From positions 4,898,001 to 4,962,000 of the forward strand of contig NZ_CP080332.1 of assembly GCF_019456655.1 (NCBI RefSeq): a DNA stretch of 64,000 nucleotides, read 5' to 3'. Positions 12,155-16,904 of this stretch are shown one piece after another. Under the pieces are notes generated by a model, which saw only the letters and a program-made list of their open reading frames with translations, was not told the DNA's origin and searched no databases. The position numbers were made by a program, and so were the translations under genes. This DNA comes from Mycolicibacterium diernhoferi (GTDB lineage Bacteria > Actinomycetota > Actinomycetes > Mycobacteriales > Mycobacteriaceae). Position 1 is the stretch's first letter. Each line of letters opens with the position of its first letter.

Positions 12155-12425
12155 TCCAGGCCGCAAGGGACGCGATCCACGGGCAGGACCAGATCTCATC
12201 GGCGGGTAGCACTAGCTCTCCCCAACCCATGGAACTAGTTCGATAGCAACTGTTCGACCCCGGATTGTCGGCGTAGTATCCACTGCCTTTCACGGCCTTC
12301 CAGATCAGCCTACCTGCCCAGCAAATGCCTCAAACTCTTGTTTCAGCAGGTAATTTGGTGCGATATTGTGGCCAGGGAATCGCCGCCATCGGCGGCAAGT
12401 GCGAAACACAACCGGGGGGTTGATT

Positions 12426-15400
12426 ATGTTTTCAGCAAACTGTAGTCGGGGGTTGTTGCGACCCATCACCGGGCCCGCACCGTATGCCGCACACATCGGC
12501 CGCGTGGGAGCATTGGCGGTCGCCCTCGGCATCGGCGGCGTGATCGTCGGCGCACCTGGCGCGGCTTGGGCGGAGGAGACCACATCGACGCCCTCGTCAT
12601 CCTCCTCGGACTCGAGGGACTCATCGGAATCGACGTCGCCCGCGCCGAAGTCGACGTCGAACGAACCCGCCGCGACCGGCCCGACGGGCCCGTCCCCCGA
12701 TGACGGATCCGGAGATGATCCGGATATCGCGAGTGCGCTGCCGGCCGGTGCCACCGACGATGACCCGCCGACGCGCACCCCCGCCGACGATGTGGTCGAA
12801 CCCGACCGGGAGCAGTCGCAAGTCGTCGGCGCTGATGTCGCGCCTGAGCGGTCCCCCGAATCGCCGACCGCCCCCACCCGGTGGGTGGCCCCGGCCGGGA
12901 AGAACAGCGACGCCAGACGGGCCGTGTCACCGACGGCTCCGACACGGACAGCGGCACCGGCCGACTCGGACTCAGTCCCCGGCCGCTTCGCGTCCCGACC
13001 GGCGGTCGCCCCGGCATCCGGAACCCGAATCGCTTCTCCCAGAGTGCAATTACCCTCGAACGAGGTCCCGGTAGCAGCGGACCAGACCACCGAATGGAGC
13101 AACCGAACCGCAGCGGCCGTCTTCGCTGCACCGACCGGGTCCACGCCGGGCGCGTCCGAGGAGTTCCGGCTGGTGGGCAACGGTCACCCGCCGGTTCACG
13201 ACCCGGGCCCGATCGGGCTGGACTCGTCGGCGATGTGGGCTGTACTCGGGTCCGCTGCCCGCCGGCACTTCAGCGAGCAGGTCACCGGTCACGCACAGCT
13301 CGCCGGCCTGGCCCAGACGCTGCAAGGGGAACCGCTCGGGCAGGTCGACGAGCAGGGGCCCGCAGCGCTGATCGAGCAGCCGACGACGTCGATCTTCTTC
13401 GAATCCAGCCCGACCGTCGGTGAGGCCGCGGGAACCGTGCTGATTCCCATCGTCCGCACGGGCGACCTGACCCGGGAGTCCACGATCGAATACGGAATCA
13501 CCTCCGATACCGCAACCGCCGGCGTGGATTACATCGGCCAGGGCGGAACTATCACCATGGGAGTGAATGTCGACCGCGTCTTCATCAGTGTCCAGATCGT
13601 CAACGACACTCTGGCGGAGTCGACCGAGACCTTCGTGGTGTCGATCATCAACGTGGACAGCGGCTCGCGGTTGCTCTATCCGCGGACCGCACGCGTCGAC
13701 ATCCTGGATGACGAAACTCCGGTGGTCGATCCGCCGTCGCCGCCGCTCACCTCGAATTACAACGTCACCCAACAGGTGGTGGCATCGGGGCTGGGACAAC
13801 CGCTGGCGATGGAGTTCTCGTCCCACGATCCGTCATTGATCTACGTCGCGGAGAAGGGCGGCATCATCAAGGTCGTCGACACCGATACCGGCGTTCAGAC
13901 CGTCTTCGTGGATATCAGCGCGAAGGTGAACAACATTCAGGACCGCGGCCTGATGGACATCGTGCTGCACCCGAATTTCGGTAAACCAGGCCTGCCGGGG
14001 AACAGTTACCTCTACGCCTTCTATGTCGTCGATCCCGCCGGTACCGCGGGCCAGGCCAACGCGAATGCGCGCCCCGACGGTGGCGGAAACCGCTTTGCCT
14101 ATCTGGTTCGCTTCACCGCCGATGCGGCGACCAACTACACCACCGCCGTACCGAACAGCGAGGTCATCCTGCTCGGCGGCGCCCCGGCCGCTCCGGGTGG
14201 CACCGGGTTGACCCCGCGCACCCTGCAAGACATCAGCGGAGCCGGAGTCGTCGACAGCACAAGCAATTTCAGCCAGGCCGAATCCGGATTCAACGCCCAG
14301 ACGGGTCAGTACGTCGACAACTACATCAAGGTCGATTCGCTCAGCCATGCCGGCGGATCGATGGCGTTCGGTCCGGACGGTGCGCTCTATGTGTCGATCG
14401 GCGACGGCACGTCGTTCAATGCGACGGATCCGCGCAGTGTCAGTGTGCAGAACATCAACAGTCTCTCCGGGAAGATCCTGCGCATCGACCCGTTGACCGG
14501 ACTGGGGTTGTCCGACAACCCCTTCGTCAAGCCCGGCGATGACCTCAACGCCAACCACGCCAAGGTCTACCAGTTGGGCCTGCGCAACCCGTTCTCGATC
14601 GGGTTCGCCGAGGATGGGCGGTTGTTCATGGCGAACACCGGCTGGTTCAGTTGGGAGGAGATCGAGAGCGGCCACGCGGGAGCCAATTTCGGTTGGCCGT
14701 ACTTCGAGGGCGGCGACAACGGTGTCCTGCTCAAAACCCCCGGCTACGACGCGCTTCCCGCGGACGCCGCGCGCAATGCTCCCAGCGCCGCCGCCTTCTA
14801 CGCCGCGGTCGCGAACGGCACCATCAAGATCACTCCGGCCTATCGCGCTTTCTCGCACGATCCCGGCGCGCCGGGATTCCAGGCCGGGGCGATCGTGGGT
14901 GTCGACGCGGCCTACACCGGGTCACGGTATCCGGCCGAGTTCCGCAACGACATCTTCTTCACCGATGTCAACGCGGGCACCGTGTTCGTCGCCGATGCCA
15001 ACAACCGCAGCGATGTGAAATTCTTGTACCGCAGCACAACTGTCCCCATCGCCTTCAAACAGGGCCCGGACGGATACATGTATGTCGCGAACATGGCCGG
15101 CACCATCACCCGGTTGCTCATCGAGTCGAAGAACCCGCCGCCATCGGACTCGCTGCTGTCACCGAAGGGCAGTGCGACCGTCGCCAACAACGTGTTCACC
15201 CTGACCAGATCCACCTACCAAGCCGGCGCCGCGATGTCGACCCAACGCATCGACATGCGCCACGACTTCACCCTCGCCTTCGACATCAACCTGGGCACCA
15301 ACGACTCCGGCGGCGACGGCGCAGCCCTGGTGTTCCACAATGATCCACGCGGCGTCAACGCCATCGGCACCACCGGCAGCGGCCTGGGCGTCGGCGGAAT

Positions 15401-16904
15401 CCAAAACGGACTCGCCATCGAATTCGACACCTACAACAGCACCACCGCACACCTGAACACCTCCCGCATGCCCGGCGCCGACATCGCCGCCGACCACACC
15501 GGCTTCCTCGACACCGACGGCACCTACGCCAGCACCCCCACCGCACTGCCCAACCTCGAAAACGGCGCCTGGCGCACCGTCGTCGTCACCTGGAACGCCA
15601 CCACCCAAACCATGAGCTACACCATCAACGGCCAACCCACCGCAACACCACTGACCGCCAACATCATCAACACGTTCCTCGGCGACTCCAACTACGCCCA
15701 CATCGGATTCACCGCCGGCACCGGCGGCAGAAGCAACACCCAAAGCATCCGCAACTTCACCCTCGCCGCCACCTACGAAGGACAAGCACCCGCCGCCAAC
15801 CCGCCGTTCGCGGGTTCGGATACGGCGACGACGCAAGCCGGTAAGGCGGTGACCATCAATGTGCTGGCGAACGACAGCGATCCCGACAATGACCCGCTGA
15901 CGCTCATCGAGGTGACGAACCCGGTGAACGGCACGGCGACGCGAAACATCGACAACACCATCACCTACACGCCCAGGGCCGGCTTCTTCGGATTCGACGG
16001 ATTCTCCTACACGATCTCCGACGGAACGATGCAGAGGTCCGCACAGGTCAGCGTCACGGTCACGCCGCAGGCCGGGGTGGTGCTGTCACCGAAGGGCAGT
16101 GCGACCGTCGCCAACAACGTGTTCACCCTGACCAAATCCACCTACCAAGCCGGCGCCGCGATGTCGACCCAACGCATCGACATGCGCCACGACTTCACCC
16201 TCGCCTTCGACATCAACCTGGGCACCAACGACTCCGGCGGCGACGGCGCAGCCCTGGTGTTCCACAACGATCCACGCGGCGTCAACGCCATCGGCACCAC
16301 CGGCAGCGGCCTGGGCGTCGGCGGAATCCAAAACGGACTCGCCATCGAATTCGACACCTACAACAGCACCACCGCACACCTGAACACCTCCCGCATGCCC
16401 GGCGCCGACATCGCCGCCGACCACACCGGCTTCCTCGACACCGACGGCACCTACGCCAGCACCCCCACCGCACTGCCCAACCTCGAAAACGGCGCCTGGC
16501 GCACCGTCGTCGTCACCTGGAACGCCACCACCCAAACCATGAGCTACACCATCAACGGCCAACCCACCGCAACACCACTGACCGCCAACATCATCAACAC
16601 GTTCCTCGGCGACTCCAACTACGCCCACATCGGATTCACCGCCGGCACCGGCGGCAGAAGCAACACCCAAAGCATCCGCAACTTCACCCTCGCCGCCACC
16701 TACGAAGGACAAGCACCCACTTCCGGCCCGGGTGTGGGTGCCTCCGTTGCTCCGGCGCGGGCGCTGAAAGTCAGCGCAATGCAAAGCGCATCGGAGCGCA
16801 GCAGTTCCAGGTCCTACCGCGATCTGGTTCCGGGCTATTGGTTCACGGCATCCGACGACGAGTTTCTGCAGGGGGTGTGGGACTCGTTCGCCGAGCGGGG
16901 CTAG
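12426..16904 (+). CDS. Exported multidomain protein: Calx-beta, PQQ-sugar-dehydrogenase-like, two lectin domains
   Basis: 1,492 residues from ATG 12426, which is preceded by a G-run. A long signal peptide ends AGAAWA-like at about residue 49. A Ser/Asp/Pro/Thr-rich disordered part follows (50-310), then a Calx-beta domain (about 321-434), a six-bladed propeller of the soluble PQQ-glucose/sorbosone dehydrogenase family (about 443-900; DGALYVSIGDG, YQLGLRNPFSIGF, GANFGWPYFEGG), an L-type-lectin-like domain (about 910-1122; GGDGAALVFHNDPRG, GLAIEFDTYN), a Big_9/cadherin-like domain (about 1125-1217; VLANDSDPDNDPLT) and a second, almost identical lectin domain (1219-1431). The two lectin segments are 638-bp direct repeats. 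Every Gln in them is CAA, unlike the propeller, where CAG dominates. Probably a surface glycan-binding or -oxidising protein; enzymatic activity is unproven. Its last four bases overlap the convergent SIP gene. Confidence 0.85.
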   Translation: MFSANCSRGLLRPITGPAPYAAHIGRVGALAVALGIGGVIVGAPGAAWAEETTSTPSSSSSDSRDSSESTSPAPKSTSNEPAATGPTGPSPDDGSGDDPDIASALPAGATDDDPPTRTPADDVVEPDREQSQVVGADVAPERSPESPTAPTRWVAPAGKNSDARRAVSPTAPTRTAAPADSDSVPGRFASRPAVAPASGTRIASPRVQLPSNEVPVAADQTTEWSNRTAAAVFAAPTGSTPGASEEFRLVGNGHPPVHDPGPIGLDSSAMWAVLGSAARRHFSEQVTGHAQLAGLAQTLQGEPLGQVDEQGPAALIEQPTTSIFFESSPTVGEAAGTVLIPIVRTGDLTRESTIEYGITSDTATAGVDYIGQGGTITMGVNVDRVFISVQIVNDTLAESTETFVVSIINVDSGSRLLYPRTARVDILDDETPVVDPPSPPLTSNYNVTQQVVASGLGQPLAMEFSSHDPSLIYVAEKGGIIKVVDTDTGVQTVFVDISAKVNNIQDRGLMDIVLHPNFGKPGLPGNSYLYAFYVVDPAGTAGQANANARPDGGGNRFAYLVRFTADAATNYTTAVPNSEVILLGGAPAAPGGTGLTPRTLQDISGAGVVDSTSNFSQAESGFNAQTGQYVDNYIKVDSLSHAGGSMAFGPDGALYVSIGDGTSFNATDPRSVSVQNINSLSGKILRIDPLTGLGLSDNPFVKPGDDLNANHAKVYQLGLRNPFSIGFAEDGRLFMANTGWFSWEEIESGHAGANFGWPYFEGGDNGVLLKTPGYDALPADAARNAPSAAAFYAAVANGTIKITPAYRAFSHDPGAPGFQAGAIVGVDAAYTGSRYPAEFRNDIFFTDVNAGTVFVADANNRSDVKFLYRSTTVPIAFKQGPDGYMYVANMAGTITRLLIESKNPPPSDSLLSPKGSATVANNVFTLTRSTYQAGAAMSTQRIDMRHDFTLAFDINLGTNDSGGDGAALVFHNDPRGVNAIGTTGSGLGVGGIQNGLAIEFDTYNSTTAHLNTSRMPGADIAADHTGFLDTDGTYASTPTALPNLENGAWRTVVVTWNATTQTMSYTINGQPTATPLTANIINTFLGDSNYAHIGFTAGTGGRSNTQSIRNFTLAATYEGQAPAANPPFAGSDTATTQAGKAVTINVLANDSDPDNDPLTLIEVTNPVNGTATRNIDNTITYTPRAGFFGFDGFSYTISDGTMQRSAQVSVTVTPQAGVVLSPKGSATVANNVFTLTKSTYQAGAAMSTQRIDMRHDFTLAFDINLGTNDSGGDGAALVFHNDPRGVNAIGTTGSGLGVGGIQNGLAIEFDTYNSTTAHLNTSRMPGADIAADHTGFLDTDGTYASTPTALPNLENGAWRTVVVTWNATTQTMSYTINGQPTATPLTANIINTFLGDSNYAHIGFTAGTGGRSNTQSIRNFTLAATYEGQAPTSGPGVGASVAPARALKVSAMQSASERSSSRSYRDLVPGYWFTASDDEFLQGVWDSFAERG
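15154..15791 (+). repeat. Lectin-domain direct repeat, copy 1 (638 bp)
   Basis: Matches 16081-16718 at a constant offset of 927 bases. Reading both copies I find two differences: G15208/A16135 (Arg to Lys) and T15341/C16268 (silent). Homology stops abruptly at both ends, at the domain limits. Confidence 0.95.
16081..16718 (+). repeat. Lectin-domain direct repeat, copy 2 (638 bp)
   Basis: Second copy of the unit at 15154-15791, separated from it by the Ig-like Big_9 segment. Near-identity at silent sites means very recent duplication or continuing gene conversion. Deletion between copies would remove exactly 309 codons and stay in frame. Confidence 0.95.

Follow-up and report, generated by a model that had tools for sequence, protein, structure and literature searches.

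The window, a 64,000-nucleotide stretch of the Mycolicibacterium diernhoferi genome, encodes a large modular protein, predicted to be exported, in which a Calx-beta domain and a six-bladed GSDH-type propeller precede twin L-type lectins. The Calx-beta and propeller core is, on the sequences sampled, a family in four phyla and thus wider than first thought, and its propeller has lost the residues with which sGDH clamps PQQ. Our best reading, held tentatively and with slightly less than even confidence, is that the protein is an exported, glycan-targeted, enzyme-like extracellular propeller and not a quinoprotein of the sGDH type.

Gene, domain architecture and export signal

The gene is a single open reading frame that opens with an ATG at 12426 and closes with a stop codon at 16902-16904 (Table 1). 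Six Gs (12414-12419) lie six bases upstream of the ATG; an alternative call begins at a TTG at 12366, and residues are numbered here from the ATG. The genome is a single contig of 6.0 Mb with a completeness of 100, on which the window spans G000:C1:4898001-4962000. In order, the protein comprises an export signal, a low-complexity linker of about 260 aa, Calx-beta, propeller, lectin, Big_9 and lectin. As 1,492 open codons carry strong domains, an open reading frame artefact was ruled out, and the architecture is confirmed as real and not due to chance.

Table 1. Features of the gene in window coordinates, with the evidence for each
Feature	Position	Strand	Evidence or remark
Whole gene, stop included	12426..16904	+	1,492 aa
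Export signal, residues 17-57, motif HIGRVGALAVALGIGG...PGAAWA	12474..12596	+	Shared motif; hydrophobic core and A-x-A site
Low-complexity linker, residues 58-317	12597..13376	+	A/P/S/T/D-rich; no Pfam match; putatively disordered, from composition only (residues 49-318)
Calx-beta, residues 321-429	13386..13712	+	Pfam PF03160, 2.8e-17
Six-bladed GSDH-type propeller, residues 445-907 (bounds set by us)	13758..15146	+	Pfam GSDH and model
His641, position of sGDH catalytic His144	14346..14348	+	46/46 members
Asp660, position of sGDH Asp163	14403..14405	+	46/46 members
Arg720-Asn721, positions of sGDH Arg228-Asn229	14583..14588	+	46/46 members
Asn849 at sGDH Lys377 position	14970..14972	+	Basic in 0/46 members
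Val873 and Ile875 at sGDH Arg406 and Arg408 positions	15042..15050	+	Basic in 1/46 and 0/46
L-type lectin cassette 1	15154..15791	+	Pfam residues 914-1110
Big_9 Ig-like spacer, residues 1125-1211	15798..16058	+	Pfam PF17963, 2.2e-21
L-type lectin cassette 2	16081..16718	+	2 mismatches to cassette 1
C-terminal tail	16719..16901	+	No Pfam match

In the Pfam scan, Calx-beta scored 63.2 bits against a cut-off of 27, and GSDH (PF07995) matched at 4.9e-29 with its best stretch at residues 634-765. Lectin_L-type (PF18483) matched two stretches (5e-81, best 914-1110), both above its cut-off of 78.3 bits at 145.9 and 144.2 bits, while PF03388, a related model, matches best over the second lectin (residues 1223-1421). 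An AF2 model of Calx-beta plus propeller (mean pLDDT 90.7, pTM 0.87) was matched by structure search to Calx CBD1 and to the propellers of sGDH and Asd, and the six-bladed GSDH propeller is confirmed by Pfam, model and fold matches together. The modelled Calx-beta domain fits 3e9t_B (TM 0.92 on the target, 1.2 A, 111 columns), and several acidic positions in it, candidates for the calcium ligands, line up with Calx CBD1-type chains. An AlphaFold model of the lectin (pLDDT 84.7) found L-type lectins as its structural matches. Pfam and the predicted folds bear out the domain assignments and order given in a preliminary description of this DNA made from the sequence alone; its export signal and twin lectins were likewise correct.

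We infer a signal-peptide role for residues 17-57 from their hydrophobic core and A-x-A site. When this 41-aa region was searched against its own genome, 16 places were found at E <= 1 (own copy counted) and 15 at E <= 0.01, the matches sitting on open reading frames of 606-2,447 aa; across the genus it was found at E <= 0.01 in 168 of 297 genomes, with up to at least 25 matches per genome. Besides the window protein, the genome has 15 proteins with the motif; Pfam analysis of 14 (the fifteenth, L033, was scanned apart) identified GH5 cellulase, M4 metallopeptidase, phosphodiesterase and alpha/beta hydrolase domains as well as RCC1, lactonase-like propellers and a beta-helix, with Big_9 in eight of the 14; L143 gave no Pfam match, and L147 is a weak motif match (E 0.3). 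On these long modular proteins the motif reads IGRVGALAVALGxG...A and is followed by an S/T/P/D/E-rich linker (window 12474-12596; L033, L134-L147). It looks like a class signal, not known to us under any name, and the window protein belongs to this group of exported modular proteins.

The two lectin cassettes form a sharp-edged repeat with 2 mismatches in 638 bases. As they are the only PF18483 matches in the genome, a donor lectin elsewhere in it was ruled out, and assembly duplication was set aside as their source since the genome is a single contig and Mycolicibacterium sp. CR10 also has repeated lectin-Big_9 units. CR10 (L034) has two such units and, behind them, a third lectin that is cut off by the contig end; copies 1 and 2 are 84.5% identical there, and copies 1 and 3 93.9% identical over 279 bases. 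Lectin sequence stands at contig edges in genomes G159 and G160, and in G170 no more than 160 bases separate the lectin piece from a contig start, as would be expected if near-identical copies break assembly. We infer that the twin lectins probably reflect ongoing duplication or conversion. The lectin was found in five of the 297 genus genomes, and G033 and G266, which carry the core, gave no lectin match. Under the site names that we take to apply, the Asp-Gly of the sugar loop and the Glu/Asp of the metal-site motif EFDT are invariant in 16 of 16 rows, and the Asn ligand position is Ser or a shifted Asn in both window copies. Third-position skew on the coding strand is extreme in both lectin copies (GC -0.77; AT +0.76 and +0.83); in the propeller of the same gene it is -0.30 and -0.32, and the A/T skew of one CR10 lectin is opposite (-0.96).

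Spread and partner modules of the Calx-beta and propeller core

Public genome contigs were scanned once with short query peptides, including FMANTGWF and NFGWPYFE, yielding 70 loci that are a sample and not an exhaustive set, and in which motifs inside the fetch peptides are conserved by construction. Fifty-four of the loci (L034-L087), from Mycobacteriaceae, Alphaproteobacteria (including Bradyrhizobium), Planctomycetota and Cyanobacteriota, were counted as family, and the 16 with low identity or no Calx-beta (L088-L103) were set apart, among them L092, a lectin match without GSDH. BLAST detected Calx-beta in 52 of the 54 family loci, none being seen in the short pieces L084 and L085. Alignment A1, of 46 rows, excludes nine partial or near-duplicate loci (L046, L049, L064, L071, L076, L078, L084, L085 and L087); these nine and L034-L036 are the 12 of the 54 that lie outside the Pfam scan.

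In a midpoint-rooted tree of 52 rows, the 46 family rows group together (98/95), and a clade of 13 rows (100/100) unites all five mycobacterial rows, which form a clade of their own (100/100), with alphaproteobacterial ones; the Bradyrhizobium rows sit among cyanobacteria. Within the genus, the core was present in 7 of 297 genomes sampled. A conserved neighbourhood was considered and rejected: flanking P450, SDR, TetR and siderophore-interacting genes match at only 28-34% and in 4 of 10 loci, which, as loci overlap, represent 3 of 7 places, with several contigs ending inside the gene and so missing one flank. Given the nesting in the tree, the seven carriers and the lack of shared flanking genes, transfer into mycobacteria would be the simplest reading. 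Plasmid records searched by tblastn yielded 211 matching entries, all below 60% identity and each covering less than 80% of the query.

The preliminary description had not recognised this combination in any described mycobacterial protein. The combination is less unusual than this suggests. The lectin-bearing order also occurs in two members of the same genus, in one frame in CR10 and interrupted by frame breaks in M. hodleri S5.20, and the Calx-beta and propeller portion belongs to the four-phylum family. No description of the architecture was found among open-licence PMC papers on Calx-beta with sorbosone or with PQQ-dependent proteins, although one may be in print elsewhere; the passages of PMC10574481, which falls under the latter, do not describe it.

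We found a carbohydrate-binding-type module in 33 of the 45 Pfam-scanned family proteins, window protein included, the kinds being L-type lectin, C-type lectin, malectin, CBM60, CBM6/CBM35, NPCBM and PA14. PA14, which is not always sugar-binding, stands alone in 13 of the 33, and without those the count is 20 of 45. In four of the 45 the partner is DUF4082, and eight (L032, L037, L041, L042, L044, L050, L067 and L115) have neither; Pfam detects Calx-beta in all except L082 (44 of 45), where BLAST does. Among outgroup GSDH proteins, a small control of 10 of the 16 set-apart loci with L102 covered over the first 473 of its 1,524 aa, sugar-binding-type modules occur in two, F5/8 type C in L091 and CBM6 in L101, and Calx-beta in none. 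With one label per row, though some rows hold two modules (e.g. L051, L054, L079), the L-type lectin state changes six times on the tree, and at least four of these changes are forced by well-supported branches. The lectin lies behind the propeller in mycobacteria, and elsewhere between Calx-beta and propeller or ahead of both.

Three further arrangements were observed. Planctomycetes bacterium CA13 (L083:7215-12965) has DUF4347 and, ahead of the propeller, four L-type lectins with a Calx-beta domain between each and the next, three in all. A 2,609-aa open reading frame of G266 (L115:7594-15420, minus strand) combines PKD and five Big_7 stretches with a pair of GSDH propellers, the second of which has Calx-beta in front of it. 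In G252 (3.3 Mb), a lectin in a separate frame overlaps the end of the Calx-beta-propeller reading frame (L032:7422-10804, minus strand).

Propeller pocket and cofactor clamp

Acinetobacter sGDH and E. coli Asd served as the references for reading the columns of A1. Like these enzymes, the family has a six-bladed propeller and keeps the positions of sGDH His144, Asp163 (Glu in Asd), Arg228, Asn229 and Gly247 in all 46 rows; unlike them, it is joined to Calx-beta and glycan-binding-type domains, has Gln76, Pro248 and Asp252 (sGDH numbering) changed to Asp, Trp and Glu in all 46 rows, and lacks the PQQ clamp. The clamp residues Lys377, Arg406 and Arg408 correspond to N849, V873 and I875 in the window protein, and the last is Val or Ile in 44 members; even with two columns of misalignment allowed, a basic residue lies near the three positions in only 9, 3 and 1 of the 46. 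Ten other GSDH rows were compared, and L008, a 416-aa paralog from the window genome, is the only one with basic residues at every clamp position; L033 (1,165 aa), also from this genome, does not have the full set. Clamp loss is thus common to most outgroup rows and not peculiar to the family, and since His, Arg and Asn are also kept in most of them, pocket retention and clamp loss prove the chemistry neither way. Vertebrate HHIP, an animal signalling inhibitor and no enzyme, keeps the catalytic-position His and the GD motif; its propeller has fold similarity only to that of the window protein (22% identity), and the matched HHIP chains lack Calx-beta and L-type lectin. As retention of His/Arg/Asn is shared with the outgroup and, for His, with this non-enzyme, it does not show catalysis. 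Asp506, Asp536, Asp551, Asn555, Arg556, Asp637, Arg670 and Trp740 are specific to the family, each being kept in 46 of 46 members and in no more than one of 11 comparison rows; defined by alignment columns, they may line the pocket, and Trp740 falls inside a fetch pattern, which makes its invariance partly a matter of construction.

The NCBIfam PQQ dehydrogenase model scored 74.9 bits, far below its cut-off of 434.55. PqqC (TIGR02111) was absent from all six mycobacterial carriers tested, the window genome (G000) among them (of the seven, all but G170), and was above cut-off in 5 of 16 carriers (three Bradyrhizobium, two Calothrix-type), with one further match below cut-off; these positives among non-mycobacterial carriers serve as a control for the profile search. 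As E. coli has Asd without making PQQ, external PQQ is possible, and the absence of PqqC bears on supply only and does not exclude PQQ use. Taken together, our data argue against sGDH-type PQQ binding and weaken the PQQ reading; the pocket may serve either other chemistry or ligand binding alone, both being compatible with the data. The label of PQQ-type sugar dehydrogenase in the preliminary description is thus unsupported, with the clamp gone and PqqC not found; the doubt it voiced about PQQ in mycobacteria was justified. L008 (G000:C1:5184628), a paralog with an intact basic clamp in a genome without a PqqC match, is a candidate user of external PQQ.

Proposed function and alternatives

We propose that the N-terminal signal would send the protein out of the cell and that the long low-complexity linker would let it project from, or leave, the surface. 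Calx-beta, whose fold is well matched and which stands directly before the propeller, may form a calcium-stiffened neck. Having lost the clamp, the fixed propeller pocket would act on, or recognise, a carbohydrate-like ligand without holding PQQ in the sGDH manner, and the two lectins, of confirmed fold and spaced by Big_9, would hold the protein on a glycan surface, a targeting that resembles the carbohydrate-binding modules of polysaccharide enzymes. Constant pocket residues with heads exchanged across phyla are what one would expect if a single core chemistry or ligand were retained while the heads chose the surface, although part of the invariance stems from the fetch patterns FMANTGWF and NFGWPYFE. 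A bolder version, which we consider rather doubtful, is an uncharacterised class of extracellular propeller enzymes, spanning four phyla, in which the catalytic half-site of sGDH persists but another cofactor or chemistry has taken the place of PQQ; behind a calcium-binding neck, its exchangeable lectin, malectin, CBM or PA14 heads would aim it at different polysaccharides.

The protein could quite possibly be a calcium-dependent adhesin instead, the propeller being a pseudo-enzyme used as a rigid platform or as a glycan- or protein-binding head, with the lectins making contact and no catalysis taking place. BapP, a biofilm adhesin of Pseudoalteromonas tunicata in which a propeller is combined with Calx-beta and BIg_9 repeats, keeps this alternative strong; it shares a signal with the window protein as well, but its propeller is five-bladed and N-terminal, before 12 repeats, and no L-type lectin is mentioned in the available passages (PMC12153261). 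The L-type lectins of SraP (Staphylococcus aureus), YwfG and Methanocaldococcus jannaschii, judged by entry titles, have no GSDH propeller or Calx-beta, and unlike them the window protein has two near-identical lectin copies. What an adhesin binds should tend to drift; here, however, the heads change while all 46 members agree at many polar residues that lie outside the fetch patterns.

A working PQQ sugar dehydrogenase, with external PQQ held by other residues somewhat as in fungal AA12, appears improbable to us, even though the top structural matches are PQQ enzymes and Arg 507, 556, 562 and 670, invariant in all 46 members, could hold the cofactor. The PqqC survey bears on it in both directions, absence being no bar to PQQ use as in E. 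coli, while just 5 of 16 carriers, and none of the six mycobacterial ones, give a match over the cut-off. The AA12 pyranose dehydrogenase CcPDH, 15% identical to the window propeller, offers a precedent in that it has no Lys377 contact and uses other residues, its own contacts being Arg273, His539, His560 and Arg621, as given in the passages available of PMC6881789. The same passages call Arg430 and Arg621 conserved with sGDH and Asd; these probably correspond to sGDH Arg228 and Arg406, and the second, retained in AA12, is lost in 45 of 46 members here. There is a very slight chance that the propeller is instead a lactonase that depends on a metal, or a comparable hydrolase from the wider superfamily of propellers; lactonases and others appear only lower in the list of propeller fold matches. 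The reading that we favour remains that of a glycan-targeted, enzyme-like propeller outside the cell.

The preliminary description was right in outline; its dehydrogenase label is in doubt, and the parts themselves are known, the arrangement being a variant. The GSDH fold alone invites the label of PQQ-dependent sugar dehydrogenase, which several distant homologues bear. If clamp loss means no PQQ, a family sampled in four phyla would be mislabelled, and its constant pocket would point to a candidate extracellular activity on glycans. For mycobacteria, the finding places a rarely held protein within a large exported modular class sharing one signal motif, and the recurrence of this protein's neck and propeller under different heads in three other phyla hints at an unexplored extracellular action on sugars.
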